A stretch of 32,879 bases of DNA, from positions 1-32,879 of the forward strand of contig JAULBX010027916.1 of NCBI GenBank assembly GCA_032358255.1, read 5' to 3'. Position 1 is the stretch's first letter; each line of letters opens with the position of its first letter. A model generated the notes under the pieces. That model searched no databases. It was not told the origin of the DNA and saw only the letters and a program-made list of their open reading frames with translations. This document shows positions 256-27,100 of this stretch, in pieces. The position numbers and the translations under genes were made by a program. Source of the DNA: Heterotrichella gracilis. Taxonomy: Eukaryota; Sar; Xanthophyceae; Tribonematales; Xanthonemataceae.

Positions 256-1618
256 TCAAAAACAATCCTGGCAAGGGTCTTCCCACTTCTTGCCACTCCC
301 TGGGTGGTGGCAGTAGGTCATGCACTGTAAAAAATTAGGGTTTTGTAGGGCTTCCCCCTTACATGGTGGCGGCGCGCAGTTGCGGTGCGAGGTGTCCCCC
401 AACCCTATGCGGTCATATAGGTCACAGGTGCGGCATGTTTAGGATTTAAGGCTTAGGGTTTAATAGGGTTTCCCCTCACCTGGTGGCGGCGCGCAGTTGC
501 GGTGCGAGGTGTCCCCCGACCCGATGCGGTCAAAGGTGTTGCAGTTCTTGAGGGAGGAACCCGCCGGGCAGTTGACGCGGTAGGCGCAGTTGGAGTCGGA
601 GGCGCACACGTTGAAGCACTCGCAGTTGGATGTGGTCACCACTGAATAGTAGTCTGACGTGGCGTCATTGAAGAGCAGGCAGCGGTCGCCTGGACGGTGG
701 GGATATTAGGGTTTCAAAGGGGGTGAGAGGGTGGGGGGGCAGTGGGGGCGGGGCAGGGGACAACGATGCACCTCGAGCTCAACCAGGTCGGACGGTGTTT
801 GTGTAAATTGGCAGATTGTGTGCAAGCAGGGTCACAGGAACTCTGGTGTAAATAGGTATACTGGAAGCATATAAAGCAAAGCATGCGTTCCCTAAAACCT
901 AAACCCTAAGTATCCTAAGCTACACCCTCCTTGGCACTTACTGGTTGAGATAGATAGGAAGGGCGGGGGAGGGGTGGCGGGAGGCGGGGAGGCGGCGTCT
1001 GCAAACAGCTCAAACACGAACAGGACGGTGGGGTCGGTGAGGGAGCTGCAGGTGGCGGTGGGGAAGTCGACTGTAAAGCAGGTGGCTGACTCGCACATGG
1101 CTGCGTCGGCGGCCAGGGGCGCGGAGGGGACGAGGGTGGCCCCACCGTAGTTGCAGGTGATGACGCCGGTGTCGTAGCTGAGGGCAAAGTAGCTGCAAGC
1201 GCGGAGGGAAGAGTGTTGTGAGCATATGCATGCATTGGACATTGGGGTGGGTGGAGGGTCAATTAACACAGCTGCGGACTGGTTGTTTGGAGGGCATGAC
1301 TGGAGTTTGAAAAACGCCAGGGAAAAGGAGTTTTTTTTGGGGTTTCAGTCTCGGTTTGCCCTCAGCAAGCGCAGGTTCACAACGGCAGTGCACGCATATG
1401 CATGCACAAGTGAGTACTCACGGGAGGGAGACGGACGCCAGTGCGTAGCATTCCTCCTGAGAAGTGACGGTGGCCTGAGACAGGGTGCCGGTCATAACCT
1501 CGGTGGCGTCCACAGCCACGTCGTAGCAGCCCACGGCATCAAAGTAACTGGCCGCTGCACACACATAGACAACTGTCAGGACTAATAAGCAGCGAGGTAG
1601 AACCGCTTGACTGAGCAA
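256..1618 (-). CDS. Small secreted cysteine-rich protein (WSC-like N-terminal part)
   Basis: I assemble four exons: 1618-1422, 1192-942, 689-480 and 299-256. They have GT-AG borders and matching phases (2, 1, 1) and sum to 234 codons, so 233 aa. The ATG at 1618 opens a signal peptide with a hydrophobic core LLVLTVVYVC and an AAAS cleavage site near residue 23. Residues about 30-100 resemble a WSC/PAN-type Cys module (GCYD, EECYALA, YFALSY, TCNYGG), but the Cys spacing is not canonical, so the family is an inference. A Pro-rich linker (SPPPATPPPP) follows. The third exon encodes a dense second Cys block with ECFNVC and NCPAGSS. The last exon ends DPCQDCF-stop. The likely location is the cell surface or wall. 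I do not recognise the C-terminal Cys block. The last junction is the least certain, because a degenerate copy of the exon 3 edge lies in that intron. Confidence 0.62.
363..430 (-). repeat. Degenerate copy of the 3' edge of exon 3 of the secreted-protein gene
   Basis: This stretch repeats bases 480-550 with few changes. Read on the minus strand it gives YDRIGLGDTSHRNCAPPP, against FDRIGSGDTSHRNCAPPP in the real exon. It has a possible donor (GTAAGG) but no convincing acceptor on its upstream side, so it is probably not a separate exon. It lies downstream of the intact exon in the gene's own direction. Confidence 0.75.
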
Positions 1619-3609: not shown

Positions 3610-5398
3610 ATAACAAATTCCGAGGTAGTATGCAACTATAGCTCTTTGTCGCAGGGACATGGCCCCTGCAAGTGGCCGCATGGTGTGGGAGTAAAAACCC
3701 TGCAACTTAAACCCTAAGGTTGTGGCACGTGTGAGCCTCAAGGCAGTGCCTGACCCAGAGCCATGGGGCAAGATGACACAAATGAACAAACAATTTGAGA
3801 AAAGTGTAATAAACTGGGCAGCCTGTCCGTGAACAGACGCAGAGCCATGGGAGCCTTGCAAGCATGTAAGGAAATAATCAATGAAAAAGCTGCGCTGCCT
3901 CATGAATTGAGAGATGAGGCAGCCTCACCCTAGGCAGGCGCAGAATTCCCATGTATGGTACCCATGTATGATACCCATGGGTGGTATGTCCAGGGTAGGC
4001 ACCACCCATTTATGCGCAGTTGTTTACCAATGGAACGATCTGTGCATGATATGCCCCATTACCCTGCGTGCGCTAGCTATTGACCTACTGGGGGCTGGAG
4101 GGATGCTTGTGCGCACCACATCGGGGGGGGGGTGTATGCCAGTTCCTAGTAATACAGTACTCGCCTAGCTGTAGGCTGTAGGCTGCCTGGCGCAGTAAGC
4201 GCAATAACCATTGCTTTGATGTGCAATAGCCTAGCAGCCCTGACCCAGTGCACTGATCTGAGGTGCAGACTTTGTCGCATATTTGCGCTGACGCAGCCTG
4301 GAGATGATCCTACAACTTGTATGCATGATATGCTCTGTTCAATTTGAGAAGACTCTTCATTATGAGGGGGCTTGGAGGGACAGGGCACCTGCCTGGGGCA
4401 ACACCCTTGCGAGGTTTTACTCGCCCTTCACAAGCCCTTGGGGAGGGATTGGAAGGACTTGCCCTAGGGGAGGGATTCATTCCCATGGGGGCCCATGCAG
4501 GTGCATATCAGAGCGGCAACCAAACGGGCAGGGAGGGGCCAGGCCAAACCCCAACCGGCACATGCATAGCACCGGACACCTACTTTGAAAGCCATGCATG
4601 GTCACATGGCAGTGGAATCCAACCGTGAGGCTGCTGCTTTGAGGCAGGAAGGAGGGGCCTAGTCATGCAGAGAGAGGGTCCAAAAGTTGAACCCCCTTGT
4701 CAGAAAGGTGAGGGATTTCAGGCAGTAGGCGAATCCGAGGGCAGAAACACGTTTTGACCGTTTCGGTAAGGTCGATCAGGAGTCATGAAGGATACATAAT
4801 GAAGATCTGCTATTGTCTACCGCAGGATTAGGTTTTACACGCAACAACACCCGGGGTACCCCCATGAAGTGTTGAAGACAATCTACTCGAGGTTTATCCA
4901 CCAAGTACCGGGTGCTTGGAGTGGAGTCACTGTGCCTCTGAGCCAATTTGAGAGCCATCATCTTCATGCGAGTGCTTTTAACAAACGAACTGTTGTGACT
5001 GGCCACGCCATAATGGTTTGGCGTCACCTAGACCTGTTCTACTAGGGTGAGTGGCTACTGGCCGCTTGAGCCCTTCCTAAGCTGAGCATTGCCAGAGCAG
5101 TATTTGCTTTCGGCCTGCACCCGTTGTACGGGTCCCCGACTCAGCAGTACGCTGGACACTTGCAAACCACTTCAAGGTACGTATAAGAGGAAGGGATTAG
5201 CTCAGTGCTTGCCCTGCTGTGTGCTGTGTCACGAGGACCCTCAGCATGCTGTGCCTCACCATGCCACGTCTTTCGAGGTCACTCCGTTACGGTAGCCTAC
5301 TCAATGATTGAGCCCAAGAGCTCGTGTGCTGCCAGCGTTGGCAATCCTGCATGCCGGTGCGGAAGGCGGGTGCAGTAACATGGTTGGGTTTGCTTCCT

Positions 5399-5531
5399 GT
5401 GAGTGCGTTCACTACAGGGTGCAACCACAAGGGCACAGGTCCCCCACCCCCCCTTCCTTTGATGAAGAAGGAAGGGGGGGTGGCACCCATGCACTGGGTG
5501 GTTCCAGCCTGCAATGGATGCATTCACAGGG
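5399..5531. mobile_element. Imperfect foldback element, MITE-like
   Basis: The two halves of this block are roughly reverse complements. The centre is a strong hairpin at about 5449-5480 (CCCCCCTTCCTT, a short loop, then AAGGAAGGGGGG). The outer arms pair more loosely: GTGAGTGCGTTCACTACAGG on the left corresponds to the complement of the GCAATGGATGCATTCAC region on the right. There is no coding capacity. A clear target-site duplication was not found. Confidence 0.5.
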
Positions 5532-6162
5532 AGCAGGCTTTATACTGTACGCGCCCCCAGGGTAAGGACCCTACTTCAGTGCACCCCCCCTAGGCCTCCC
5601 AACCCCCTTCAGGCATGCACGCTCGCACCTCAGAACCAATTTTCTAACATGGCTTAAAAGTACCCCTTCCTAAACCCTAGCCCTTAAACACAAGCTACCC
5701 CAGACTCCTAGATGCCAGTACAGTGACTGCAATATGGCATGCACGCTAGCAGTGCCTCCTGCACCCCCATGCCACAATTTGGTCCAACATGTGTGTGGAG
5801 CTCGCGCAGGGCGAGACACTACTTGAGAACCCTAACATAATTACCCTAGACCAACATCCTACACCACATTGGGCAGTGTCTGGTGTAGAACCACACATGA
5901 TTACCGTGCATGCTGGTAGGCGAGACCCTGAATCAAACCCCTTAATCCTAACCCTGAGCCCTGCCGGCCAGTACCCTACACCCCATGCCTCGTTGTGATC
6001 CAACGTGTGTGCCTGCGCAGGGTGAGACCCTACACAGTATCCCTACACCCTCCGCAAGGGACTCATGACCACTCCTTGTGTGGCATGGCCCATGCGCCAC
6101 AGTGACAAGCCTCCATCAGTGAAGCAAACCATCGAATCCTTTTTGAGCTGCAATCCAGCGCC

Positions 6163-9100
6163 ATGGCTAACATCCCCGGGATGATGCCGCCACATGCAAA
6201 TCCCGAGACACATGCCACCGCACCTGCTGGGGGTACGGGGATGGGATCTCTGCACATTTCTGGCGCACCCGCCCCCCTCCCGCCCCCTGGGGCATCCCGA
6301 AGCAGCGGGGATAGCAGCAGTGGGGATAGCAGGAACGGAAGCAAGGTGGGTTAAGAAAAACAACACTTGAAATACGGCTCGGTGTGCTAAGTAGTGCTAG
6401 TGCCAGGTTTATGAGGTGTGTTAGGATGTGAGGAGTAGCCCACCTGTTTGTGACATGGCGGAGTACAGCTAGTTCCAGTGATCTGTCACATAGCAAATGC
6501 TGTAGCCCTTACTAAGTGAGTAGGTTTAACGGTATTACAGTACTGGTGATGTCGTATGCCCTCAGGGTACACCTTTACCCCTTGTGTGCACCTGCAGCCA
6601 CTGGACTCCTGTGCTGACGTGGCCATCCCTGTCAAGCCAGACCTCGACTCCCCCATTCCCCCGCAGATGCTTCCATTTACCCCCTGGCAGGCAATCCGGT
6701 GCTGCCCAGCCTCACATGGATGAACGTCACTGTGGTGGGTGTGCAACCATATCTTGCCGCTTACGTGCTCATGTACGTGCTGATCATGTGCTGGTCATGT
6801 ACCAATCTGGTGCTACCCAAACTCATATTGATGAGGAACCTTGTCGTGCTGGGCGCGCATTCCACACTTAATCATGTATGCCAGTCACATACTCATTACA
6901 TTCTGAAATGATTGCAAAACCGGAATGACTATTCCCAAAGTGAGCTAGCTACGCAGTGACCATCCTGAGGTGACCAAGCCAGGTAGCGCCAATGCGGGGC
7001 TACCTATTTTGCTCTCTTTCAGGATGGTCACTGCGTAGCTAGCTCACTTTGGGAATGGCCACCTCTGATGGGGTGCGCATTCATTGAATACTTATCAACA
7101 ACTAGCTGTCAAGAGGTTCTGAACAGGTGCCCACCCTTTGGTGACAAGTTGCAAACCCTAAACCCTATCCCAAACAGTGCCCTGGTGGGTGCGCCTGCAA
7201 ACCCTACATGCTGCAAACCCAAAATTCTTGACGCTGCAAACCCTGAACATAAAAAACCTGAATGGTGGCCTTGAAGGGGCGCCTCTCCCCATCTTTCTAT
7301 TGTTATGCTCCCCCTGTCACCGTCCTCCCCTTTCACATTCTATTGTCAGCCTATAAGAGTTTGTGGTCAAGTCAACCCCCATTCCCCTGCCATATACGCA
7401 GCGTGTGACTGATGGCAAGGGGAGGAGCAAGAACATCCTGGACGGGGTGGATGGATTTATAGACCCTGGGTAGGTTCCTCTCTTTCAACACCCTTTTTCT
7501 GCCCATGCTGATCAATTGATTACGCATTAATGCCTAATCGCCTGCTTACTACATATGATGTACATATCGATCAGGTAGTTGCCACTGGGAGTAGCTGCCA
7601 CTGTACTTGTTGACCCCTTGCTATCTATCGATAACCACCGACTTGGTTCTTGTCACACACCTGATTACCTGTTGATCGCACTTATGACGTACCGATCCCA
7701 CACCGATCACTTTTGTGCAGGCGCATGCTTGCCATCATTGGCCTTAGCAGGATAGCGTCACATGCTGATCACTCACTGATCATCTGCTGATTACATACTG
7801 ATCACATGTCGATCAACTGTGTGCAGGCGCATGCTTGCCATCATGGGCCCCAGCGGGTGCGGCAAGACCACGCTGCTGGATGCGCTTGCTGGCAGACTCA
7901 CGCGCAGGGCAACGCTGACGGGGCAGGTGGGTGGCCAGGGGTCAAATGCCTAGAATCCTGATAATCTAAAGTTCTAAAACCCTAAAACACTGATGATAAC
8001 CCTCCCTGGCAACGCTGGCAGGGCAGTTGGGGGGGTTGGGGTTGAGTGCACAAAACCATATAACTTTAAAATCCTGAAGCCATAGAAGATGACCCTCCCT
8101 GGCAACGCTGACGAGGCAGGTGGCGGGGTGGAGGTTGAGAGCCTAAACCTTCTATGTGGTTAAGTCCTAAAACCCTTAAAACCCTGGTAATGACCCTCCC
8201 TGGCAAGGCTGACGGGGCAGGGGGGTGGTCTCAGCCTGTTAAGCTGCACCTGTGGTGGTGACCCTAGCGTTTCTCCTGGCAGCGCGCCTGGTAGTTAGAT
8301 GACGAGGGCAGGCATTTTACCTATGTGCTATGGAGATCAAGCTGAATGCTCATGAAGTTTTTTTCCCACCTCAGGTGCATCCAGCTTGAGGGATTGCCCT
8401 GACTTGAAGTCCATGAGTGTTAACCTGCAGGCTGCAATGTGTTGGAGTTGGTTTTAGTTGCCTGACCATGTACCCTTGACACACCACTTTGATGTCTGTA
8501 AGCCCTTTGTCAAATCTCAGAGGTTGGCAAAGTGTTTTCGGACCTCAAAGCAAAGTTGCAAGGGTGTAGGGGCAGGGATTGATAACAAATGGCAAGACAT
8601 CGCAGCATGCGGTGCAATAGTCATGGACTTTGAGGAGTCCACCCGGGATTTGTGTCAGACTGATTGACTGATTGATCAGTAATTGCTTTGCCAAGTTCTT
8701 CAAGCATGTGATGGGCATACTTGATGTAGGCATGCAGCTTGTGTTCAAACTAGATTCAGCCTGGTTTGCTCATTTGCTGTAAATGAGGATAAGGTGCAAT
8801 GATTATCATGGCGGCCCTCGCCAACACCATGACGGTGGCTGACTGCGAGCACTGTCCCATGCTTCCCAGTTGTTTGCCCAGTACAATGCTGTGAGATGCC
8901 AGTCACTGAACTTCAGCGGCTTGTACTCTCCAATGTCCAAACCAACACAATTTGTAAACAGCAGCACGAGATGCTGCTAATTGGTACACTTGAGTTTACC
9001 TTTGTTGCAACAATGCCAAAACCCTGTCAAGGGGGTTCATTGCACCCTACCTATTGAAGGGGATTTTGCACACCCCGCCACAGGTCTTTAGAAGGAGACC

Positions 9101-11858
9101 CTGTCAAAACCCTCAATACGCTGACCAAAACCATGCCCTGCAGGTGGATGGCCACCCGTGCTGCGGCAACGCAGCGTATGTCACCCCAACCTGACCCCAA
9201 AGTGAAACCCTACCAGACCCCTACCAAGTGCTTGCCAAAATCCCACCACAGGACACACACTGCTTTAGCTCCTGGTGACTTTTGCAACTTCTTTTACCAT
9301 TTCGGACTCCGTTTCCCTCCCTTCATCTGCACGTTTCTCAGACGACAAACATGGCAGGTGGTGTATCTTATTATGTATAATTGTTTGGTCAATTCCAGGC
9401 CACTAAGCCGTTAAACTTAGCTACACAACGTGTCATCAACGGCTTAGTGGCCTGGAAAAGACGACACATTTTGCCATAAGAAGATACATCATCTGCCATT
9501 TTTGGCCAGTAACAGCTCACAGATATTGCTTGCAGTGCATGCTTCCAGCCCAGATAGCCACCATTAGGTATGGCATGGTTCGGTTAATCTTCTTCCTCAG
9601 AAGCGACCGACCAACACGCCCGTTCAAGGACAGCATGCTTAGATAATCACATGGTATATATTATGCCATGATACTCTTGAAGCAATGTTTGACGTACAGC
9701 TTCCGAATTTAGGACCCTAAACCCCGACCCTCTCCCCACCCCACCCCACTCAGCAGGTGCGCGCAAATTGCTACCCAAACCCTGAAGCCTCTTTACCCCT
9801 AAAAACCCTATGTATCGTCCTGCACGTGCGCTCGAAAGGCCACTGCGCCCACTTGTGCTACGTCACCCAGGATATAATACTACATACATGCTGAATGAAA
9901 ACGCCTCCCACGGTCAACTGAACCCCCGAAGCAACCGCCTACTAAACCCTAACCCAGGACTCACAGGAGGGGGTTGAGTGACTAATGACGCAAACTCCCT
10001 GGCAAAACCCCTCCCGCAGGTGCGCATGACCGGCCACCACGCGCACCTGTGCTATGGCAGCGCCGCCCACATCACGCAGGACGAAACCCTTCCAAATCCT
10101 TAAAACCCTACGCAAAAGGAGCCCCTCAATAACAACAACCCCGATGATACTCTTTCAAAACCCTAAAACCCTAACAAAAACCCCTCCCGCAGGTGCGCGT
10201 GACCGGCCACCGCGCGCACCTGTGCTATGGCAGCGCGGCCTACATCACTCAGGAACCCTGCAAAACCTTGAAACCCTACGCATAGGAACCCTAAATAAAA
10301 TCAACCCCAATGATACTCTTTCCAATCCCTCAAAAACACTGACAACCCTGACAACCATCTTCAGATGCGCGTGAAAACCCCCACCGTGGGCACCTGTGCT
10401 ACGGCAGCGCGGCCTGCGTCACCCAGGACAAAATCCTACCAATAAACTCTTCAATCCTGCGCAAAAGAAACCATTCAACAAAGGCAACCCCACCATGTAC
10501 CCTTTTAAATCCTAAGGTAATCCCCTTTTTGCAGGTGCGCGTGAACGGCCACCGCGCCCACCTGTGCTACGGTAGCGCCGCCTACGTCACCCAGGACATA
10601 ACCCTGCCAAACCCTACCAAAAGACCTTGAAGCCTTGCGTCAAAGGAACCCTTCATTAACAACCCCGATGATATTCTTCCAAAACCCTAAAATACCTAAC
10701 AAAAACCTCCATTCCGCAGGTGCGCATGAATGGCCACCGCGCCCACCTGTGCTACGCCAGCGCCGCCTACGTCACCCAGGAGGAGACTATGTCTGGCGTG
10801 CTGACTGTGCGCGATTTCATCATGTTCTCGGCGCTCCTCAGGCTGCCACCTGGCAGCGGCCTCAAGGGGGCGAATCAAGCTGCAGAGGAGGTGATGCGGG
10901 ACCTGGGGCTGGAGGAGTGTGCGCACACCTACATAGGCAACTGGCATGTCAGGTAGGGAAATAAAGGGAAGTATAGGGGATGAAAGAGCTAGGTAGCATG
11001 GTGGAAGTGGGGAAGCGTGCATGGGATGAGGGCCTTGTTGAGGGTGGGTCAAGGGCTGAGGTTGTAGGGTTTGTATGGGGTTCCAGGTGGCAAATTGTGC
11101 TGCAGAGGAGGTGATGTGGGACCTGGGCCTGGAGGAATGCGCGCACACATACATAGGCAACTGGCACGTCAGGTAGGGAATTCAAAGGAAGGATAGGGGA
11201 TGAAAGAGCTAGGTCGCATGGTGGAAGCGGGGAAGCGTGCATGGGATGAGGACCTTGTTGAGGGTGGGTCTAGGGCTAAGGGTGTAGGGTTTGTATGGGG
11301 CTCCAGGGCGCCAATCAAGCGGCAGAGGAGGTGGTGCGGGACCTGGGGCTGGAGGAGTGCGCTCACCTACGTAGGCAACTGGCACGTCAGGTGGGCACAT
11401 GGTTTGAGAAACAATGCCAACAACTACTTTTGGAAACAATCTCTTAGAATTACTTGAAAACGATGATAAATATTGATTTTAAAATAGCTTGGTCCTCTTC
11501 CAGCGCGCGCCTGTTGAAGGAAAGACTGCATAGTCATTGTTTGTATATTTAATCATTTCCCCACATGGCACAGGGGTATTCCTGGAGGCAAGTGCCGCCG
11601 CCGCATGTCCATTGGCTGTGAGCTGGTCGCCATTATTACCACAAAACCCTTATTTAGGGTGTTCACTAACCACAACCGAAACCCTACACAGCAGTATTGT
11701 GGCCATCATACCTTGAAACCCTTCGTTAGGGCTGTCAAACCGACCCATTGCCAAAACCCTTCCCAGGGGTATCTCCGGAGGCCAGCGCCGCCGCGTGTCC
11801 ATTGGGTGTGAGCTGGTCACCCAACCTCGCGTCATGTTCCTGGATGAGCCAACATCAG
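6163..11858 (+). CDS. ABCG-type ABC transporter ATP-binding domain, 3'-truncated
   Basis: Supported exons are 6667-6734, 7402-7469, 7827-7926, 10720-10952 and 11767-11858, all phase-compatible. A candidate first exon is 6163-6232 (start [10 protein letters not shown], Ser/Gly/Pro-rich); its donor is uncertain because the frame stays open to 6354. The chain encodes the start of an ABCG/White nucleotide-binding domain in order: [25 protein letters not shown], Walker [10 protein letters not shown], the Q-loop region [16 protein letters not shown], the signature [13 protein letters not shown], then Walker [11 protein letters not shown]. These proteins use ATP to move lipids, sterols or other hydrophobic compounds across membranes. 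The chain stops in phase 1 just after the D-loop start. No exon for the H-loop, the rest of the domain or any membrane segment was found before the opposite-strand F-box and SDR genes. The locus is therefore probably a truncated gene or pseudogene, or its 3' half is too diverged to see. Confidence 0.75.
6803..6858 (+). repeat. Copy of the 3' edge of the [11 protein letters not shown] exon
   Basis: Bases 6803-6858 repeat 6693-6755 (GGTGCTGCCCAGCCTCACAT against GGTGCTACCCAAACTCATAT, then GATGA in both). Several mismatches are present and the donor GTGGGT has become CTGGGC. It lies downstream of the intact exon within the ABCG intron. Confidence 0.75.
6931..7056. mobile_element. Foldback element with perfect 36-bp terminal inverted repeats
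   Basis: The left arm 6931-6966 and the right arm 7021-7056 are exact reverse complements over 36 bp (left arm begins ATTCCCAAAGTGAGC). A 54-bp centre separates them. Size and structure fit a non-autonomous MITE, and the perfect arms suggest recent insertion or gene conversion. It sits inside an ABCG intron and carries no reading frame of its own. Flanking target duplications are not obvious. Confidence 0.85.
7713..7760 (+). repeat. Copy of the acceptor and 5' edge of the Walker A exon
   Basis: GTGCAGGCGCATGCTTGCCA followed by TCAT occurs here and again at 7821, where the intact Walker A exon starts (7827). After about 25 identical bases the copy drifts (GCCTTAGCAGGATAGCG against GCCCCAGCGGGTGCGGC), losing the codons for GPSGCGKT. 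It lies upstream of the intact exon. The surrounding 7500-7820 is also peppered with TGATCA/CGATCA motifs. Confidence 0.75.
7903..8230 (+). repeat. Tandem copies of the 3' edge of the Walker A exon, about 98-bp period
   Basis: The intact exon ends GGCAACGCTGACGGGGCAG followed by the donor GTGGGT at 7927. Three diverged copies of this edge plus the following intron lie downstream at about 7999-8034, 8091-8130 and 8191-8222, each preceded by CCCTCCCTGGCAA. The intron parts also match and contain AAAACCCT motifs. The donor is kept only in the second copy (GGCAGGTGGC) and is damaged in the others. Confidence 0.8.
8231..9143. other. Remainder of the large ABCG intron
   Basis: No exon-like sequence with matching phase was recognised. 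The only open frames are short (69 codons plus, 67 minus) and have no motif. The stretch belongs to the 2.8-kb intron between the Walker A exon and the exon at 10720. Confidence 0.5.
9144..10600 (+). repeat. Array of partial copies of the 5' edge of the ABCG exon at 10720
   Basis: The intact exon begins at 10720 after CCGCAG with GTGCGCATGAATGGCCACCG. Diverged copies of its first 60 or so bases, each with acceptor and upstream intron, start at 10020, 10193, 10365 and 10535. Spacings are 173, 172, 170 and 185 bp. Two more decayed copies lie at about 9824-9872 and 9144-9187. The intron part of each unit carries AAAACCCT/AACCCTA motifs and the phrase CCCCGATGATA or similar. In each copy the coding similarity stops after the codons for (V/I)TQ(D/E), with no donor at that point, so they do not look like complete cassette exons. 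Confidence 0.88.
9351..9499. mobile_element. Foldback/MITE-like element with long terminal inverted repeats
   Basis: The element begins ATGGCAGGTGGTGTATCTTA and ends with the imperfect complement (AAGATACATCATCTGCCAT). The inner arms 9394-9412 and 9438-9456 (TCCAGGCCACTAAGCCGTT) are perfect complements over 19 bp around a 25-base loop. The outer arms pair imperfectly over another 40 or so bases. It has no coding capacity and lies inside the large ABCG intron. Its ends do not match the element at 6931-7056, so it is a different family. Confidence 0.75.
11083..11390 (+). repeat. Two tandem copies of the 3' edge of the ABCG exon, about 219-bp period
   Basis: The intact exon ends at 10952 (CTGGCATGTCAG, donor GTAGGG). 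Copies of its last 90 or so bases plus following intron end at 11172 and 11390, spacings 220 and 218 bp. The first copy keeps the reading frame and donor GTAGGG. The second has a 2-base loss in GCTCACCTAC that shifts the frame and ends with donor GTGGGC. The intron parts (GAAAGAGCTAGGT, GGGAAGCGTGCATGGGATGA) are closely similar. Confidence 0.88.
11574..11632 (+). repeat. Upstream copy of the ABC signature exon
   Basis: After a CACAG acceptor this copy reads [18 protein letters not shown], against [17 protein letters not shown] in the exon at 11767. It keeps the right phase to follow the 10952 donor. It then runs into unrelated sequence with AAAACCCTTATTTAGGG and lacks Walker B. The signature Ser is replaced by Pro, which is unlikely to work. 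Confidence 0.8.
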
Positions 11859-11911: not shown

Positions 11912-12019
11912 ATTGGCTGTGAGCTGGTCACCCAACCGCGCTTCATGTTCCTGGATGAGACGACATCAGGTGGGTGATCAGTGTTTAATGGTAGTGTGAT
12001 CATGGTGTAATCATCCCTG
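11912..12019 (+). repeat. Downstream copy of the Walker B exon edge
   Basis: Bases 11912-12019 repeat about 11800-11908, offset 111 bp: the ATTGGCTGTGAGCTGGTCAC edge, Walker B, the donor GTGGGT and about 45 bases of intron (CAGTGTTTAATG, GTGTGATCATGGTGTAATCA). The encoded Walker B region is MFLDETTSG instead of MFLDEPTSG. Sequence between copies is highly similar, so the duplication is fairly recent. Confidence 0.85.
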
Positions 12020-12056
12020 ATCACATTGTACTCAGGAATAACCCTAAACCCTACAA

Positions 12057-12618
12057 CCCATCCAGATCGTGATAGTTGTGCTTTTCCAAGGGAAGCAGGC
12101 CTGGGTACTGTGGGTCAAAATGCCCACAAAATCCTCCATTGTGCACCCATGCCTCTGCTGTAAGAGGCAAGGCCATGATGGAGAATGGTGTTGTCATTGA
12201 CCCAGGGTAGTCGGGCCTGCATCCTCCGGGGAGGGCACAGCTACCACGACCTGGATGGTGCACGGTTTAGGGTTTAGGGTTTAGGCTCGTTGGAGGCTCC
12301 TCAGTTCGGGTTTAAGGCTACGGTTTTTGAGGCTCCTGGGTTTAGGGTTTGGGTCCTTTGAGGCTGCCCTGGCCACACGACTGTGACCCATTGCCTCCTG
12401 CGCAGCTGTTTAGGGTTTATGGTGAAGGCGTGCACCCTAAAACCCCGTGTGTCCTCATACTTGAAGGTGTGCACCATCCAGATCATAATAGGTGTGCTTT
12501 TCCAAGGGGTAGCGGGGCCGAGGCTGTGGGTGGATGGCAAATCCATTCTCCATAGTGCAACCATGACTCTGCTATAAGAGGCAAGGTCATGATGGAGAAC
12601 GGTGTTGTCATTCCGAGT
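12057..12618. repeat. Diverged direct repeat pair of about 145 bp
   Basis: Bases 12057-12206 and 12474-12618 are similar along their length (both contain CCATCCAGATC, TGTGCTTTTCCAAGGG, AAGAGGCAAGG and CATGATGGAGAA). A short inverted fragment of the same sequence lies at about 12240-12262. Between them is a TTTAGGG-rich stretch (12264-12360). On the minus strand both repeats can be read as a peptide with LHH-LASYS. The first copy has a stop in that frame and I cannot assign it to a gene. Confidence 0.7.
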
Positions 12619-14869: not shown

Positions 14870-17599
14870 TCACCAGGGAATCTCCTGCCCGTCCCACGCG
14901 TAGAACTTTCCGCTTTTGGCTGTGGTGGCTCCGTCAATGATCCCCAGCATCTGCTGCACTGAGTACTCCCGAGTGAACAGCTTGCCAGCTGGCACGTTCT
15001 GCAACGCACAAGGGAGAAAAGGTCAGGAAAGCATTGGAGTAGGTGTGTGCAAAGAGCTCACTAAACCCTAAAGGTGAACCAGCCATTTGGAATGGCTTTG
15101 ATGGGTCAGTGTCACGTGTACTGGGGTGCGGCAGCAGGCACACCACCTTGTACTGCCTGCGCGCCAGCTCCACTCCGCCATGGTTGCAACCCTAAACCCT
15201 GTATGCAACATCCACAACCCTAGACATGCCCGCAATTCTACACACACAGGCCAGGGCCCAGCTTGACCCTACACCCAAAACCCTTCACCCAAGTGCCCAC
15301 CTTTTGGAATGGCTTAGACAGGTCAGTATCACACGTCCCAGGGTGCAGCAGCAGGCAGGCAATCTTGTACCGCCTGCGGGCCAGCTCCACCGCCATGGTA
15401 GTGGTCAGCTGGTTGAGTGCGGTCTTGGAGGCGCGGTAGGAGTACCAGCCGCCCGTGCCATTGTCAGAGATGCTGCCCACGCGCGCGCTCACGCTGGCCA
15501 CCACCGCAGGCCGCTCGCTGCGGGGAAGATGGAGGATCACAAATAAAAACGCGTAAAAGATCTATTGGAGTTTTTGATGTCTTTTGTGGGGGGATTTTTA
15601 GACACTGTATTTGGTCTTTTTTATGCTTGAATTCTGCTACCCGTGCGGTTGTCAGAGATACAATAATCGCTGATCACGGTAAGATGCTGCTCACGCTGGC
15701 CACCACCGCAGGCCGCTCGCTGCAGGGAAAATGCGAGGTCATTAATACAGCGTAAACATCATTTGAGTTTGTTAGGTAATGTTTGGGGCAATTTGGGACA
15801 CTATATCCAGTCTTTTCTATGTTTTGAATTTTGGCTACCCGTGTCGTTGTCAGAGATGCTGCCAACGCGTGCCACCACGCTGGGAACCACCGCAGGCCGC
15901 TTGCTGAGGGTGGAGGAGGGGGGTTCAAGACAGCACGTGTGGTGTGGGTGGATGTGCCGGGGCATGGTGTGGGGGCAGTTGAGTGCGGGTGCATGGCATG
16001 GCATGGCGTGCGCGGTGATAGGGGCTGCGGTTGGCAGCGTTGCGGGTGCAATGGATTGCTTACTCTGTAGCGCCGTTGACCGCCGCAGCTTTGACCAACA
16101 AGGGGGAAAACTCCTGCAGCAAACAGCATGGGTGTGTGACATAAGAAGGCCAGGGTAAGGAGTTCTGCAGCAAAAGCATGTTCAACCACCAACTTGTGTG
16201 CGCCGTCTGATGTGACCAAGCAGGATCTCGCAAGGGCCAAAGTGTTTGCAGCCCCAAGTGCAAGACAGACTCCCAACCTGGCTGCACTGCTGAAGTGCAT
16301 GTAGCAAGCAACATATATCATCTCACCTTGGCCACCGGCATGGGCCACCAATATGGCCCATGACATTCGTGATAAATTCAACAATAATATAAGAATAAAT
16401 TCAATTAAAATATACCATAGTTCCTATGTTTCCCCCCAAGACAAAACATTTCTTTACCTTGGCCACCAATATGGGCCCCATGGCGTTGGTTGTGAAGCAG
16501 CGCATGAGGTTAGCGGCCTCAACTCGTGCCAGGGCGGTTTCTGGTGACATGACCCCCGGGATGTGCAGAATCCCCGCCACGTTCAGCACCAAATCCAGGT
16601 GGGCGTGGGAGTCGGACACAGCCGCCGCAGCAGACTACAGAGGTGGGGGAGGGGTAGCGTGAGTGTATGAGTTGCACGACTATCTAGTATGGTCAGGATC
16701 GTGGAGAGACCCTTGCCGACATCTAGGGTGTCCTCAGGGTTCCTTCCCTCAGGGTGCACCTCACAACACACTCCAGCCTAGGGACTGTCAGTGTGATTAT
16801 CTTCATCGACCCTTCGTCAGTGATGCCACCAGCTGCAGCGCCTGCCAGTGATGTGCACACCCTAGCCTAGCCAGGATTTGTTCCCTGGGAATGCATTACC
16901 CTACCCAGGGTGTCGTCAGGGTGTCTGCCCTACACTCTACAAACCCTAGCCTAGGGTATTGCCGGTGTCTGTACCTTGATCGACCCCTCGTCAGTGACGT
17001 CCATGGCCACCACCTGCAGCGCTTGGGGGTGGTGCTGCAGTAGCTCGTGGAGGTGGGTGGCCTCTGCGGGGGTGCGACAGGCGGCAACCACACTGCAGGG
17101 AGGGAGGGGGGAGAAGGGATGAGTGAGCTAGTGGGATGTACCGACATTCGGTCATGAATGATGGTAGTACAATTCTTTTCTCCATTTGTTATCCTAATTT
17201 GACCTAGGGGAGGGAGGTGTGGGAGTGGTGGCTATTGCGGTTGCAGGGGCCAGGGCAATGCACAGTGTGGCGTGGTGGGTGGGTGGGGTCACCCGTTGCC
17301 AAAGGCTTTGGCTAGAGTGTGGCGTTATGTAGTGAGTGTACCTATATGGCGTTGGATATTGGGTGCTAGTTGTCGGATGGTGGGCGGGGGCAGGTGGTGG
17401 GTGGTGTGGGTGGTGGGAAGCGTTAATTAAAGGGTACTAGCTGCTAGTAGTGTGGGTGGCGGGTGGCAGGTGGGGGGTGGAGGGGGGTGCGTGGGAGGGA
17501 GTTTCACCTCTGCCCTGGCCGCTGCAGCAGCTGCCGCACAAACTCCAGCCCCAACCCACGTGACGCCCCCGTCACCAGGGCAACTCGAGACTGAGCCAT
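14870..17599 (-). CDS. Short-chain dehydrogenase/reductase, C-factor (CsgA)-like
   Basis: Six exons, 17599-17508, 17092-16975, 16634-16458, 16113-16064, 15517-15301 and 14998-14870, give 260 aa with every phase matching. This is the usual size for a classical SDR. The cofactor motif TGASRGLG is at residues 10-17, NVAG at 88-91, the catalytic Ser lies in SVSARVGS (about 154-161), and Tyr173/Lys177 form YRASK. The end, GKFYAWDGQEIPW, is characteristic of the plant and algal C-factor-like group. These enzymes are NAD(P)-dependent oxidoreductases; the substrate is unknown. No transit peptide is evident because the Rossmann motif begins at residue 8. The start has no in-frame competitor that keeps the fold. 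At least four of its exon edges have degenerate copies in the adjacent introns, but the intact chain needs none of them. Confidence 0.92.
15077..15185 (-). repeat. Copy of the 3' edge of SDR exon 5
   Basis: This stretch repeats 15303-15402. On the minus strand it encodes ELARRQYKVVCLLPHP, against ELARRRYKIACLLLHP in the exon, then continues past the position of the real donor. Substitutions such as T-C-D-T to T-R-D-T and a changed donor show decay. It lies in the intron between exons 5 and 6, downstream of exon 5. Confidence 0.85.
15535..15910 (-). repeat. Two copies of the 5' edge of SDR exon 5, about 190-bp period
   Basis: Read on the plus strand, GCTACCCGTG...GTTGTCAGAGAT followed by CACGCTGG...CCACCGCAGGCCGC occurs at about 15637-15726 and 15833-15908. 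It matches the exon 5 start region (about 15448-15523). The intron parts also match between the two copies (GACACTGTATTTGGTCTTTT against GACACTATATCCAGTCTTTT). Both lie upstream of the intact exon on the minus strand. The coding parts are frame-broken. Confidence 0.85.
16130..16190 (-). repeat. Copy of the acceptor edge of SDR exon 4
   Basis: Around 16160-16180 the plus strand reads GTTCTGCAGCAAAAGCATG, resembling ACTCCTGCAGCAAACAGCAT at the exon 4 acceptor (16111-16130). The similarity is short. It is upstream of the exon on the minus strand, in keeping with the other 5'-edge copies. Confidence 0.5.
16324..16362 (-). repeat. Copy of the 3' edge of SDR exon 3
   Basis: The plus strand ACCTTGGCCACC...ATGGGCCACCAATATGGCCC resembles the exon 3 end at 16456-16490 (ACCTTGGCCACCAATATGGG). 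It lies downstream of exon 3 on the minus strand, separated by an AT-rich stretch (16363-16430). Confidence 0.6.
16716..16855 (-). repeat. Copy of the 3' edge of SDR exon 2 and flanking intron
   Basis: Plus-strand TCGACCCTTCGTCAGTGATG then CCACCAGCTGCAGCGC at about 16806-16841 repeats TCGACCCCTCGTCAGTGACG...CCACCACCTGCAGCGC at about 16980-17020. The flanking intron repeats too (AGGGTGTC, CAGGGT, AGCCTAGGG, GTCAGTGTGATTATCTT against GCCGGTGTCTGTACCTT). It lies downstream of exon 2 on the minus strand. Confidence 0.78.
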
Positions 17600-18542
17600 T
17601 GCACGGATTGGGCTACGCCTGGTGGATCGAGCTGAGTCCCTGCGTGGGTTCCTGGGGAGGGCTGTTGTTTGTGTGGTGGGTGGGTGGGTTCTAGGTTGTG
17701 GGGCGGTGTGGGAGGAACGGTGGGGCATCAGCCACGGGGGGGTAGGAGGCAGGTGATTGGCGTCTAGAGGTAGGATAATATGTGTGCGAGCGGATGGAGA
17801 GGAGTATGTCTGTGCTTGGGTTGTCCGGGTCAATGCTACGGAATGTGCATGCCTGGACGATGGGTTTCACATAGATACGATTCCTCTTAAACGCAGGACA
17901 GAAGGTTGCCAACAGGATATGTGGTAAGCACACACAGTAGCTCGCAGGTTTGCGAGGAAGAAGAAGTATGAAGCATGCTGTTTGACGTCAACACCACAGA
18001 GTGCCCCAGCTGACGTGGCGGTGCCTCGGCTAGTCTCTACTGACAGCTGCCAAGAGCTGGGCCCTAGGCTGCAATTTACAGCGCAAAGAGAGCAGGCGTC
18101 GACAGCCACAGCAGGCTAGTTGTACTGGTGTGCCACTGACTGTAGCAGCGTCAGTCTGCGAGGGCTGCAACCATTCTGGCATGCCGTGCTGCACATGCAT
18201 GCATATGGTCAAGTGCAGCAAAACCCCGCTCAATGCTGAACAACGCCACGTTCCTTGCCCCTAATCTGTACATTGCATCTGATAGTACGCACGTCTCTAG
18301 TGCCTGAGTCGCCCCAGTTGGTGAGGGCGAGCTTTGCTGCAATTTCCTTGCGCCACATGCATGCATATGTTAACAGTATCACCTTGAGCAAGCAGTGACG
18401 CCTACTGACTGACCAGCGCAGATAGCCTTAGCTCTACAACTCAAGCCTATTGCATCTGAGGGCAACACACAGCCCAAGTGCGGTTTAACCTCCCCCATCT
18501 CCCCTCATCAGCACCCGTGGAAGGCACACAACAGTCCCCACC
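17600..18542. promoter_or_regulatory. Divergent intergenic region between the SDR and LON-domain genes
   Basis: The SDR start (17599, minus) and the LON-domain gene start (18543, plus) face away from each other across 943 bp, so both promoters should lie here. Two copies of CATGCATGCATATG (about 18194-18207 and 18357-18370) are the only notable motif. Related ATATGCATGCA strings recur near 1205, 1395, 1787 and 13675. No TATA box can be assigned with confidence. Confidence 0.4.
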
Positions 18543-21500
18543 ATGACCTCTCTGCGCCCCCAACCCCGCACCATGCGCCCTACCCCAACATCCACCACTT
18601 CCTTATCTACTGGAGGCCTCAAACTTGGCCAAGCCATGAGCAAACAAGCAGCTTTCCAGCCACCTAGGCGCAGTACCAGGCGCGGGGTCCAGCCAGTGTG
18701 TGCCTCGCCTAGCCCAGACGATGGGGGCCTGGCTGATGCCAAGAAGCAGCTAGAAAAGCTTTTCTTCTCCACCGCAACCACGGGTGGGTACAAACAGCAC
18801 GTGCACCGCTGTCATATACACCCTTGCGCACTGTGCATAATCCTACCAAGCCCCACCACCATGGGAGTGGTGGGGCACCATGACCACAACGGGTGGGTGC
18901 CACAGCAATGGCACATCTGTAATCATCCCTCTTGCTTTACTCCCTGCAGAGGCGCCACCCGAGGAGGTAGGGGGTGAAGTGGCACAGCCCTCGAGCACCC
19001 CTTCCTCCCCTCTCTACATCCGTGACCTCCCCTTGTGGAGGGTGCAGTGGGCAGTGCTACCCGGATGGCAGGTGAGGAAACCTCAACTCCAAACCCTACC
19101 AAACCTGTGTTCTGCTTATGCACTGCTTGACTATTGGCCACGCCGGATTTGGACTAATCGGTTTGGACTAATCGGATTTGGACTAATTGGTTTGCAGCCA
19201 GCGGTGCTGCCCAGTGTGGTTGGTGAAAACCCTAATGCATGGCTGGTGAAGAACCCTAGTGCATGGGTCCCGCTCCTCTCATTCCCACACCTCACACCCC
19301 ACCCCCACTACTGCCACATGTTCCACTTCATTCGCTACCCCTCCACCCACCACCACCACCACCACCACCCGCCTCACCACCCCTTTCCACCCACCCCACC
19401 CACCCCACCCCCGCAGGAGCTGCTGCTGGTGCACGTGCCCCACTACTGCCACATGTTCCAATCAATCATGGCGAGTCCCCCCCCCTGGAGATTTGGACAC
19501 ATGTACCTGCCAGGGGGGTCAGCCAACCTGCAGGATCCCCCATATGCACTCGCCCCGGGGTCGCGTGCCCCCCTGGTGGGGGTGCTCATGCAGGTGAGAT
19601 AAAGGGGTGTGTGGGCGGGGGCAAGGATTGGAGGAAATGGGACGAAGTGGGGTGCTACGCAACATCTGTTCTTTTCTATGGAGTTTGAATTCGAGCTTTT
19701 GGGTACATTTTCACAATTTGGAAGATCCGCTCAGGTCAAAGGGTTCACATTTTGCCTCACATGTACCTCCTATGCCTCCATCCCCTGGTGGCCCCCTCCC
19801 CACCCCCAATTCACATGCAGTGGTCAATTCCTCCCGTCCCCTTGTCCCACTCCCCCGAATATCCCGCACCCCCTACCCACAGGTGACCCACTCTGTTCAG
19901 CTGCCTGACGGGCGGTTGCTGGTGCTGGCGGCGGGGGTGGGCAGGATAAAGGTGGGTGGCTGGGTGGGGTGGGTGGGAGGGGGCAGTGAGTTGGGGCCTG
20001 GGGATGGGCGTGACTCACTATCGATGGCGGCGTTTTTAGGAAAATATGATCAGGGACATCTCCTCTACATGTGATACCTTCCCCTGGGTTGCCCCTGAAC
20101 CCCGTCACCCCTGACATGGGCCCCACACATTGCTGTGCATTGGACGCGCATTTGGCCCCCTCAAATCCCCTTGGTATTTGGCAAAGTCCGCCCCTCACCC
20201 CCATCATGCTCCCCACCACCTCCCCATGCTTGTTATAATATGAATGAAAAAAGCAAATAATAGTAATGATAATAATATTAATAATACTAGGACCCCCCGT
20301 GTGAACCATCCCCCCTTGCAGGCTGATAATAATACCACTAGGATCCTCCATGTGAAGCATACTATTAATATTAATAATAAATGCTAATAATAATACCAGT
20401 AGGATCCTCCATGTGAAGCATCCCCCCCTGCAGGCTGTGCACGTGACCTCCCAGGTGCCCTACACGCGTGCTGACGTGGCGCTGTGGCCAGACTGCGAGC
20501 AGGTGCAGGAGCAAGAACAGCTGGCAATGGAGGTATGATGTTGTGGGGTTGCTGGGGTATGATATTGTGGGGTTGTGACCCAGGAGGGGATGGCAGTTGC
20601 TGTAAAGATGATATTGTGTGAGTGGCTTGAGGGCATGGAGGTGGTGGCACGAGGTTTGTCCCTGCACACCATATAACCACCCATGTGGTTGGTCCCTCCC
20701 TTATGAGTATTTCCCCGTGTCTGATGTTTGCTCCCTATGTCTTGATACCTTCCCATGTAATGTCCTCCCACCCGTGCATCCCCACCATCTTCCCCAACAG
20801 TCCCCACCCCACCTATCACACTTCCCCCATCAACTCCCCCACCCACGCCACCCCACCCCACCCTCCTGCGCAGGTGGTCGCTGCTGCCCACCCCCACTCC
20901 CCCACCCAGCATGTGGTCCAGGTGGCAAGGCACACAGCAGCCACATGCGCAGCCGCAGCAGCACAGGTGGGGGGTGGTGATGCTTGTGCGTGTGGGGGGA
21001 TGGGGGGTGGGAAGATGCCAATCCTGACAAAATGATAGCGCTGATCTGAAACCCCAGCCCCATTTAGTGCTATTATTTTGTTGTGAGTGATGCCTGTGTA
21101 GTTGGCCCATCCTTTACGCGGCGGCCTGTACCAGTAGGGAAAGTAATTTTGCCCTTAACTAACTCCAATTACTACTGAATCAAATCCCATATCGCCCTCC
21201 CAAATTAAGCTCTACCCTGCCTACGACTGCAGTCGTGGTCTTCGTTTGAACTGGATTGGCTGCGATCCCCCTCCAACCTGGAAGCCCTCACCCGCGCCAT
21301 GATGCTGGGTGACATTGACCACGTGCTGCCGCTACCACCCGCAGCGGTGGGGGATGGGGGGGGAGAGGAGGTGGAGGAGGCTGTGCGGGGTGCTGCGGCT
21401 GCTGCGGCTGCGGCTGCGGTGTCGGTGGGGGGCGTGTGCGGGGGGGACGATGGGGTGGCGCAAGGGGTGGGTGCTGCTGGGGTGTGCGGATGGTGTGTAT

Positions 21501-24191: not shown

Positions 24192-27100
24192 TCACGCGGT
24201 GACCCTCCCCTCCTTTGCCCCCTGCCCCTCACCCCCCTCGCTTCCCCCCCTGCCCACCACCCGGGCCAGCAGCGCCCCCCTCTTGGCCTGGTTGGTGTGG
24301 GGGGCGAAGGTGCACTCGCGCAGCGCAGCTGCAGCCAGCTCCTCAGCCAACGCGGCGCGCCTGGCTTCTGAACGGGCCTGTGCGGGGGTGGGGGGAGGTC
24401 GTTGTGGGTGGGGCATTAGTTGGTGTGCGGTGTGGGGATGTGTGCGGTGTGGGGATGTACTTGCGCAGGCTGCTGCAGCCAGCTCCTGGGCAAGCGGTAC
24501 AATACAGGCATGTACATTACTTACCATTTGATTACTCAAATTTTTATTTTTATATACCGGTACTTAATTCACATAGGAAACATTATACATTGGGGCAAAT
24601 AAAGGCGCCTGGCGTGCGCTCGAATTTGTGCTGGTGGGGATCGAGGGTTAGGGTTGTATGCTGGTAGAGAGGGTTTGCTTCAAGGTGCTGGGCAGCGGTG
24701 CTTGCTGTCAACAGCCCCTGGGGCCCTACCCTCACCTTCTTCGCCCCGTCATGCAGTATGATATGTGACTGCGCAACATGTGCTACAGGCCCGTATCTCC
24801 CCTCTCCCTCCACCCATCCACCACCACCACCACCCACCTTGTTGGCCCCCTCGTGCAGCTTGAAGGGCTGCGGCACGGTGTGGGAGGTGGCCCGCGCGCG
24901 CGGCTCCAGCACAAACGCCTTAGCTTTCCGCTGGCGCTGCTCCTCAGCCAGGCGCTGGGCAGCAGCGGCCTTCTCAAGGTGGCGGTCAAGGCCGCGCACG
25001 GGGGGAGGGGGCTGCGGAAAAGGGGGCGTGGGGATGGGTGGGTCATAGTAAGATAATAATACCAAAACCCACCCTAGGGCCTGTAATTATCAAATTACCC
25101 TTGGTGGGTGGAGAAGGCAAGCCACTGATGGCCATGGTTTTTGCGGTGGGAAGGGGGAGTACCCCATGGGTGCATGTTGCAGCCTATATGCGTGGCGTGG
25201 CACCATGGGGAGGCATTTGAGCAGCTGGTGCACCTGCCCATCTACTCCCCACCCCTTTTGGGACACCTGCATGGGCGGCGGTGGCCCCCTGACCTGGAGT
25301 GTGCACTCATGCAGCTCTAGGCCCTCTTTCAGGTTGTGCAATATGTTCATGGGTGACACACCGCCCCGCACCCAGCACGTGCCCTGCACCCACCTGGTCT
25401 GCCTGCGTGGGCGGCGGCGGCCCCGTGACCTGTGGCGTGAATGTGCATTCTTGGAGCTCCTGGTACTCCTTCAGGTTGCGCGCCAGCTGCACCCGCAGGT
25501 CGCGCTCCCGCTGGTGCTGGTCAATGCGCCGCATGAGGGAGGCGGGGTCCTGGGGGGGAGGAGGGTAGGAGGGTGGTGTTGGTGGGTGACTGTGGATGGG
25601 GGGCAGGTGTGGTTCCACACTGGCTGATGTAATGCAGGTAGGGAGGTCTGGGTGGGGCAGGAGGTGGGTGGTAAAGTGTGCATGAAATCATGCACCTGCA
25701 CCCTACACGCAGCACATTGACCCAGCCACCGGTTCCACAATGATGCACCCCCATCCCACAACACCCACCTGGTCTGCGATCATGAACCTAGCCGCGGGGC
25801 TGACCCCCGCAGAGGCGGGGGTGGCCCCCTTGATGACTGGCTTGGCGGTGTTAGGCCGGAAGGTGCACTCGCGCGCCCGCACCTCCTCCATCGCCCGCAG
25901 CGCCTCCTCGCGTCGGGCCCGCACCCCATCGTTGCTGGCCATCTCCTCAATGCTGCGGGGCTACGGGGGTTGGGGGGCGGCGGGGCGTGAGGCGGGGGTG
26001 TTTTGGGGCATGGGGTGTTTGGGAAGAGGGGGCATGTGTTATGTTAGGCAATAAACAAGCAATACCCGTACCCACCGCAAAACCCGAGTAGCAGAGTGAA
26101 AAATAAACAACAAAGATATTCTTTTTACAGATGTTGAGCAAAAAAATGGCATTTACGTGGGGGGTAGTGCAGTGTGTGGATGTGCGGCCCCTTCCATGCA
26201 ACAGTGACCGCCCAGCCCCCTGGCCCCCCCAATCCACCCCTCGACCTCTCCACCAGCAGCACCTGCCCCACCGTCCTACCACCACCACCACCCACCTTGG
26301 CCATCCTCAGGCTCTTGGCGCTCAGCTGCGGCCGGAAAGAAAACTGGGAGTAGTAGCTTTCCGCCGCAGCTGCGCGCGCCGCCTCCTGCTGCGCCGCATC
26401 ATGGCAGGCCAGCCGCTCCGCCCTCTCCGCGTGGCTCTCCCCCAGGTGCGCCCAGTGGTCTGAGGATGCGGCTAGGACGGCCACCGCCATGCCGGTGTGC
26501 GGGTTGAAGGTGCACTGCTTGTCCTCCTGTGGGGTTGGGGATGGGGTTGGGGGTGGTTTGGGGGGGTTGTCCCTTCACTATGATTGCCACTATAACCAGC
26601 TCCCTCTCAAACATGTCCAACAATCAGTACAATCCACTTTCAAACCCAGAAAAAAAATCACATTGTGCATTGTAAGTATCAAACAATATTGGAAATGTTT
26701 TTTTTTGGAAATGGTGGACATGCCTGTTTGGGATATTATTATTAATTGTGACAAAAAGGTACAAACGAAAAACATAAATATTTTTGTGCCCTGCCGGCCT
26801 TGGCCCCCGCACCATGTCCTGCATCACCGCCAGCTGCCTCTCCCTGCGCTGCTGCTGGAAGAACTTCTGGCGGTCCATGAAGCCGGAGGGCACACGCGCG
26901 CTGGACTCCATCAGGCGCTGGGAGGCGGGGCACAACGCGGGGCTGAAGGTGCAGTCGGGCTCGGGGGCAGGACCACCTGCATGGGGGAAGTAGGGTTTCA
27001 GGATTCAAGGTTTTAGGGTTTTGAGGATGGGCAGAGTGCGCGGGGAGGGGAGGCAGGTTGGTGAGGGAGGTTAGGGAATCAAATTTGGGGTTTCGGGGTT

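Follow-up and report, generated by a model that had tools for sequence, protein, structure and literature searches.

Partial copies of exon edges in introns of Heterotrichella gracilis: placement, unit sizes and possible origin by small tandem duplication

In a stretch of 32,879 nucleotides from the xanthophycean alga Heterotrichella gracilis (assembly GCA_032358255.1, contig JAULBX010027916.1, positions 1 to 32,879; hereafter the window), diverged direct copies of exon edges are found beside the intact exons of five genes, referred to here as the secreted-protein, ABCG, SDR, LON-domain and C-T-F-x-P genes. The observation is confirmed and is not special to the window, given that about one in ten exon ends carries such a copy in the regions sampled. 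The best reading, which we hold with some confidence, is ordinary small tandem duplication that is unusually frequent at exon edges. The edge enrichment, the two preferred sizes of the repeat unit and the well-kept exon halves of a subset of the copies are the parts that deserve to be followed up.

Direct repeats in the sampled regions

The window corresponds to C539:1-32879 in an assembly of 903 contigs and 68.5 Mb. Nine additional 20-kb regions were taken at fixed coordinates on contigs C5 (R03), C25 (R05), C45 (R07), C65 (R09), C85 (R11), C105 (R13), C125 (R15), C165 (R19) and C185 (R21); with the window, these ten algal regions amount to 213 kb, or 0.3% of the assembly, and all the results below refer to them unless a smaller scope is given. 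Their GC content is 50-56% and they contain no N. A search with one protein from a sampled region gave top matches of 54-60% to named chlorophytes, without a close relative. Region R17 (C145) was left out of the sample, as it has 35% GC and proteins that, by our own reading, are of bacterial type; 0 near direct repeats were detected in it. The open reading frames of this stretch, C145:20001-40000, suggest a contaminant or an associate.

Repeats were detected by blastn of each region against itself at 40 bits or more, using the reversed, uncomplemented sequence as control. For the window this gave 24 direct pairs, each less than 1 kb apart and none farther, 8 inverted pairs and 0 matches in the control. 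In the ten regions, direct pairs separated by less than 1 kb numbered 119, versus 14 inverted pairs at the same distance, together with 3 direct pairs at 1-4 kb, 2 at more than 4 kb and 3 matches in the reversed controls. At a lower threshold of 34 bits, used for spacing and also for unit size, 121 pairs were spaced by 30-300 bp, versus 2.7 expected from the rate at 300-3000 bp. The direct orientation and close spacing of small tandem duplications are both present, and some pairs are clean tandems with only 1-10 bases between the aligned copies (11801/11912 in the window, 8227/8430 in R05, 18901/19119 in R11 and 7218/7390 in R03).

The direct repeats are widespread but unevenly distributed, with 24 pairs in the window, 13 in R03, 22 in R05, 5 in R07, 1 in R09, 15 in R11, 13 in R13, 17 in R15, 2 in R19 and 7 in R21. 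A preliminary description of the window had proposed a genome-wide habit; the nine other regions do show the same pattern, but with a range of 1 to 22 pairs each the habit is far from uniform.

Position of the copies relative to their exons

Gene models were obtained with a home-made two-strand hidden Markov gene finder, trained on the sampled sequences alone and without RNA, which called 34 genes with 324 exons and 58.5 kb of coding sequence. The splice consensus derived from these models is CAG/GTRAG for the donor and GCAG/G, after a pyrimidine-rich tract, for the acceptor. A partial copy was found at 67 of the 580 splice edges, a count made after 66 of 156 edge records had been set aside because the alignment spanned the whole called exon, and with only the best-scoring pair taken where several fall at one edge.

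At 60 of these 67 edges the copy lies where the preliminary description had placed it: 23 acceptor-side copies are upstream and 37 donor-side copies downstream of the exon. None of the 7 exceptions is in the window. At two of them, R19 1107-1142 and R15 17763-17804, what was called as an exon is the copy itself; in three (R03 6332-6637, R05 19086-19455 and R15 9871-10203) both segments lie inside one called exon; and the last two come from a single R07 gene, where the repeats are spaced by 802 and 942 bp. The self-comparison and position scoring suggested at that stage, now carried out on the window and the nine regions, recovered both the repeats and the rule. However, the partial copy necessarily ends up upstream when a tandem duplication crosses a 5' edge. 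The rule is thus a geometric result of tandem duplication; it lends little independent support and mainly says that the copies are in tandem. The number of exon borders involved, given before as more than a dozen, comes to 13 in the window: 10 intact edges in the secreted-protein, ABCG and SDR genes, and 3 in the LON-domain and C-T-F-x-P genes. An eleventh listed edge of the window belongs to called exon 10535-10585, which is itself a copy.

Unit sizes, arrays and a possible mechanism

The repeat unit shows two preferred sizes. Two Gaussians, with means of 101 bp (standard deviation 21) and 199 bp (standard deviation 23), describe its distribution better than a single one (Bayesian information criterion 926.8 versus 956.4). 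Among the 88 families recovered at 34 bits in a search range of 30-300 bp, 0 are below 60 bp, 1 is at 150-165 bp and 0 are above 255 bp. The mode near 199 bp could partly consist of dimers that have lost their middle copy.

Small tandem duplications, tolerated at exon/intron borders and subsequently decaying, probably explain most of the copies. We infer that every event was a tandem duplication, of a kind that is frequent in this genome, with units of approx. 63-245 bp and preferred sizes of approx. 100 and 200 bp. The two breakpoints would fall on either side of an exon border, one within the exon and one within the adjacent intron, leaving the far copy of the exon whole and the near copy as half an exon inside the intron, with one splice site. 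As the gene is still readable after such an event, these duplications would be tolerated; the extra copy would then decay in the manner of intron sequence, most rapidly in its intron half, and amplification of some units would give arrays. From the literature, the duplications may originate when staggered breaks are filled in and their ends joined, through the polymerase alpha-primase/CST and non-homologous end joining (NHEJ) route. The breakpoints in exon and intron had already been proposed in the preliminary description, and this scheme fits most events best, but it leaves the well-kept exon halves described below unexplained.

Five of the 80 families with an offset below 300 bp have three or more pairs. 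The acceptor array of the ABCG gene has up to six copies, in which neighbours are the closest (5/60 differences between copies 1 and 2, 4/60 between copy 4 and the parent); for copies 1, 2 and 4 the alignment to the parent is free of gaps over 60 exon-derived nucleotides, copy 3 aligns with gaps, and comparison of the intron parts of the same copies gives 7-11 gaps per approx. 105 bp. These properties bear on an unlikely alternative, that two diverged haplotypes or strains were assembled end to end (a heterotype false duplication) and each copy is the other allele of an exon end, together with its intron. Against such an error count the families of three or more pairs, the acceptor array of up to six copies whose neighbours are closest, the two-peaked unit sizes, the old clean tandems of 69-81% identity and the 23 of 28 exon-part indels that break the frame, unlike functional alleles; there is no N in the sampled sequence that could mark an assembly gap between copies, and the 2 of 2 loci searched against the assembly, with only the best candidates scored, matched only themselves. 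Conversely, in the 220-bp donor array of the ABCG gene the outer copies 1 and 3 are the closest (8/89 differences, versus 12/91 and 13/89 between neighbours), unlike what stepwise growth would leave, and assembly error also agrees with the paucity of pairs near 100% identity, with introns that are diverged yet partly residually homologous, with copy acceptors as strong as real ones, with the coding-like differences of the best-kept class (see below), with the presence of at least one bacterial-looking contig, C145, in the assembly, and with the false exon gains that such errors cause in vertebrate assemblies, according to passages of PMC9516828. Overall, the arrays would seem to argue for real tandem growth, not decisively.

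Regarding mobile elements with a long target-site duplication, this candidate was rejected: one spacer region and the ABCG array match only themselves in the assembly, and the spacers of pairs at least 84% identical share only matches of 18-52 bp, several of them telomere-like, with other sampled loci. Telomere-like fragments are also present in some repeat spacers.

Enrichment at exon edges and fate of the two halves of a copy

The 80 families comprise 62 at exon edges, 10 in introns, 3 in intergenic sequence and 5 inside exons. For comparison, 3,000 random tandem duplications were simulated in the same sequences, with the observed unit sizes and the same blastn settings; the parent exon was constrained, neutral divergence went to a maximum of 0.22 per lineage, and indels were set at 0.2 for each substitution. 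The ratio of edge to non-coding families was 62:13 observed versus 870:1,096 simulated, where the 870 include whole-exon detections (odds ratio 6.0, p=2.4e-11), and among families aligned over at least 70% of the unit it was 23:4 versus 698:910 (odds ratio 7.5); the simulated rates are assumptions, and a slower real decay of exon-derived sequence would reduce both figures. Among families at least 90% identical, 12 are at edges and 2 are non-coding. In this ten-region sample, edge copies are thus approx. 6-fold commoner than simulated random placement predicts.

Identity within the best pair of each family is at least 98% in 2 families and 95-98% in 4, followed by 10, 15 and 15 families in successively lower classes, 22 at 75-80%, 9 in the next class and 3 below 70%; only 1 of the 119 pairs is 100% identical.

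Several of these results weigh against duplication and neutral decay as the whole account. Apart from the dependence on assumed rates, a 6-fold edge enrichment that extends to near full-length events goes beyond what plain duplication with neutral decay would leave. The alignment covers less than 50% of the unit in 21 of the 62 edge families, versus 8.9% of those simulated. At the 10 flush edges that are at least 84% identical, exon-part differences are 8/161, 5/163 and 28/162 at codon positions 1, 2 and 3, that is, 13/324 at positions 1 and 2, while the intron half is mostly left unaligned by blastn. Finally, the small number of young events (6 of 80 families at 95% or more) weighs against a steady, ongoing process, and the earlier suggestion that the process is ongoing is weakly supported by these data.

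A duplication process that itself favours exon ends, with units of approx. 100 and 200 bp (chromatin- or Okazaki-sized), is a tentative possibility that we regard as doubtful. Under it, half-copies of a gene's own exons would make its introns grow and would form an intronic reservoir kept by those exons, with size classes and edge bias pointing to nucleosome position or transcription at exon borders.

The two halves of the copies were followed at the 58 edges with an offset below 300 bp. At 24 of them the alignment takes in 60% or more of the intron half that would be expected; at 20 it stops less than 20 bp from the splice site, and 14 are intermediate. The preliminary description, in which the flanking intron was part of each copy, holds for 11801/11912, 10862/11082 and the 10004-10787 array; it fails where homology ends near the splice site, as in 11571/11764 with 3 homologous intron bases and 15083/15300 with 1. 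When the spacer was compared with the outer intron flank, z was above 3 in 12 of 37 cases, versus 4 of 37 for the exon-side flank and 5.5% for a background of other events, the shuffles behind these z-scores preserving base composition only; part of the flush events were therefore probably once full tandem units. For the spacers of the 98% and 97% pairs, no significant homology to the outer flank was found (z 0.6 and 2.0). A substitution rate taken from the spacer-to-flank alignments was discarded, since shuffled sequences yield the same mismatch fraction.

Differences at codon positions 1, 2 and 3 are 101, 82 and 240 over all 58 edges, a clear third-position excess. The counts relied on are those of a strict set of 42 edges, obtained by removing the 16 of 58 whose copies overlap called exons: these are 70, 50 and 142, a third-position share of 0.54 (bootstrap 0.48-0.61), which is close to the value for a copy that drifts neutrally while the exon beside it evolves synonymously (up to approx. 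0.5 by our own arithmetic). Base composition was rejected as the source of the excess, as it gives equal expected mismatch at the three positions. The exon-internal offsets of 63, 90, 96, 171 and 216, all multiples of 3, were dropped as evidence of selection because the gene finder calls such exons only in frame.

That exon-end copies are refreshed by gene conversion or by repeated templated copying while the intron halves drift is, in our opinion, a rather improbable alternative to duplication with neutral decay. It would account for exon halves of 84-98% identity beside unaligned intron halves, for copies that do not maintain the frame, and for the ends of the aligned blocks in the 21 short edge-crossing events, which are near the splice site (on average 13.4 intron bases, versus 28.3 with a standard deviation of 3.8 for a random split, a mean that omits blocks lying wholly inside the exon). 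Nevertheless, in several copies the polypyrimidine tract is strong and yet differs from that of the parent, which overwriting would not give, and the third-position share of the strict set shows that most events fit neutral decay. The well-kept exon halves of the subset would still lie beyond duplication and neutral decay; they may be refreshed copies or copies of diverged alleles, either real or due to assembly.

Splice sites of the copies

The copies keep the acceptor AG in 21 of 22 cases and the donor GT in 28 of the 35 aligned (1 more is unaligned). The median acceptor tract score is 2.7 for the copies, 2.5 for real acceptors and -2.2 for random CAG, and the donor score is 5.5 in the 27 copies with GT versus 6.4 in real donors. 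A partner site was sought near the copies: no class-wide donor signal above background was found near the 22 acceptor-side copies (best 1.7 versus 2.3), nor a significant acceptor signal near the 36 donor-side copies (best 2.6 versus 2.0, p=0.16). As a class, the copies do not have the two splice sites of a cassette or decoy exon, and those at 16 of the 58 edges overlap a called exon. Most of them are halves of exons that carry a single good splice site, and so potential decoys and not cassettes.

These data also bear on whether the copies are functional, as alternative or decoy exons under selection, which we consider very unlikely. Retention of AG and GT, with tracts and donors near real strength, would be expected of functional exons, but it is also about what a neutral divergence of 8-9% predicts (18/22 and 29/35 by our own arithmetic). 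Likewise, a copy overlaps a called exon at the 16 edges mentioned and some of these copies stay in frame; as a class, however, they are without a partner site, four window genes are open without them, and the exon-part indels, 23 of 28 of which break the frame, speak against coding use. Stops number 4 in 1,068 copy codons.

Both splice sites are present, with the frame kept, in some edge copies, which the gene finder includes as repeated peptides (R15 17621-17804, R05 5371-9722 and R13 19489-19725). Judging from the models, these are possible new exons arising from the duplication process.

Genes and copies in the window

The frames of four window genes are open when the copies are omitted, giving 164 residues for ABCG (4 of 10 called exons joined), 260 for SDR (6 of 8), 465 for the LON-domain gene (all 10) and 223 for the secreted protein. 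The gene finder called parts of the ABCG copies as exons (9754-9756, 10535-10585 and 11307-11390), and models that include copies are open too; therefore, open frames alone are no proof that the copies are excluded. Pfam domains were detected in 6 of 8 joined products (ABC_tran, adh_short, LON_substr_bdg, Methyltransf_16, Methyltransf_21 and 2Fe-2S_thioredx); the same scan gave no domain in the secreted protein or in the product of the gene at 29962-32599. The latter has nine exons and, by our own reading, resembles the ciliary protein ZMYND10.

In the secreted-protein gene (minus strand), exon 480-689 has a downstream copy of its 3' (donor) edge at 335-415, which corresponds to parent block 453-532 with 90% identity over 81 columns and an offset of 118. 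The intact exon, taken from the gene model, is in an open frame without the copy; the join of 480-689, 942-1192, 1422-1554 and a first exon picked by eye gives the 223 residues.

In the ABCG gene (plus strand), the intact Walker-A exon of the gene model is 7827-7926, and the joined product matches ABC_tran (3.8e-26). A copy of its 5' (acceptor) edge lies upstream at 7681-7751 (parent 7787-7857, 79% over 71 columns, offset 106), and a three-copy array of its 3' edge plus intron, with starts at 8008, 8101 and 8202 and a unit of approx. 100 bp, occupies 8008-8228. The array of the 5' edge of exon 10720-10952 plus intron extends over 9822-10615, with a unit of 168-185 bp and copies starting at 9822 (partial), 10001, 10174, 10348 and 10516; the intact exon 10720-10952, which by our own reading includes the Q-loop region, joins position 7926 in an open frame when the array is omitted. 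Two copies of its 3' edge (starts 11082 and 11298; 87-88%) form the 220-bp unit array at 11082-11395, and part of the second, 11307-11390, is the last of the called exons mentioned above. The intact exon 11767-11858 of the gene model, part of the joined product and bearing the signature and Walker B by our own reading, has a copy of its 5' edge at 11571-11631 (84% over 61 columns, offset 193; 3 intron bases homologous) and a clean tandem copy of its 3' edge plus intron at 11912-12021 (111-bp unit). The latter, at 93% over 110 columns, marks the highest identity among window edge copies, short of the near identity previously attributed to some of them.

In the SDR gene (minus strand), whose joined product matches adh_short (4.7e-31), the intact exon 15301-15517 has a copy of its 3' edge downstream at 15083-15184 (99 exon bases and 1 intron base, 81%, offset 217) and two copies of its 5' edge upstream at 15689-15927 (unit of approx. 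200 bp), parts of both of which (15707-15719 and 15839-15903) were called exons by the gene finder. Exon 16975-17092 has an old copy of its 3' edge downstream at 16725-16844 (69%, offset 182). The LON-domain copy (plus strand, 20258-20325, upstream, 79%, offset 108) comprises the acceptor region and the first 4 bases of exon 20434-20532, its parent block 20366-20437 reaching just these 4 bases into the exon. In the C-T-F-x-P gene (minus strand), a copy of part of exon 24192-24377 is upstream at 24440-24487 (80%, offset 145), with a parent block, 24295-24343, that ends 34 bases inside the exon, and a copy of the 3' end of exon 25394-25549 is downstream at 25266-25339 (76%, offset 136), with a parent block, 25402-25481, that begins 8 bases inside.

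Other features of the window include five of its eight inverted repeats (6931-7056, 9346-9504, 12040-12274, 5391-5535 and 8407-8630), which have arms close together and 68-83% identity over 127-242 columns and are possible fold-back elements; short telomere-like CCCTAAA/TTTAGGG tracts internal to the contig (162-193, 3577-3608 and 12264-12285); and a minus-strand open reading frame at 12741-13043 whose F-box-like matches are weak and fall short of the curated cut-off.

Comparison with known systems

No account of exon-edge copies as a genome habit was found among the titles and abstract openings of the papers listed, the subscription literature being mostly outside the search; insertions in rice are reportedly the subject of work by Vaughn and Bennetzen in 2014. 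New here are the two preferred unit sizes and the exon-edge enrichment over simulated random placement. If mutation is what causes the edge bias, small duplications would have hot spots at the exon borders of this alga, which would steadily supply cryptic splice sites, new exons and intron growth, and a link of chromatin, transcription or splicing to tandem duplication would be directly testable. Should an assembly effect be responsible, the bias serves as a warning, as false duplications of exon ends would then occur every few kilobases. In both cases, the counts are a concrete null to beat.

Heterotype false duplications, as passages of PMC9516828 present them, also place additional diverged exon copies near the true exon; they involve gaps and whole exons or genes, in contrast with the half exons and arrays in sequence free of N described here. 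The AGGT intron gain of Rogers and Hellsten and the potato RNA-dependent RNA polymerase case, as covered in parts of PMC4974935, have in common with the present copies that a tandem duplication adds splice sites to a gene, but there the new intron is spliced out. AGGT intron gain and recursive splicing were rejected in our data: exons starting with GT are not enriched (3/22 with an upstream copy versus 56/267), and at the strict 42 edges the copy sits in a called intron. The study of Gao and Lynch (2009), as cited in the same part of PMC4974935, likewise deals with duplications within genes that take in introns and parts of exons; introns are propagated or created in that case, whereas here the half-exon stays within an existing intron.

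The closest mechanistic parallel considered is that of PMC8355091. It introduces small tandem duplications as the most frequent type of short insertion (<100 bp) in human and, in the passages drawn on, attributes those of mammalian cells to fill-in of 3' overhangs by CST/polymerase alpha-primase followed by NHEJ. Both sets of duplications are local, head-to-tail and without a mobile element. Those passages mention no preference for exon edges, whereas in this alga the edges are enriched and the units centre on 101 and 199 bp.

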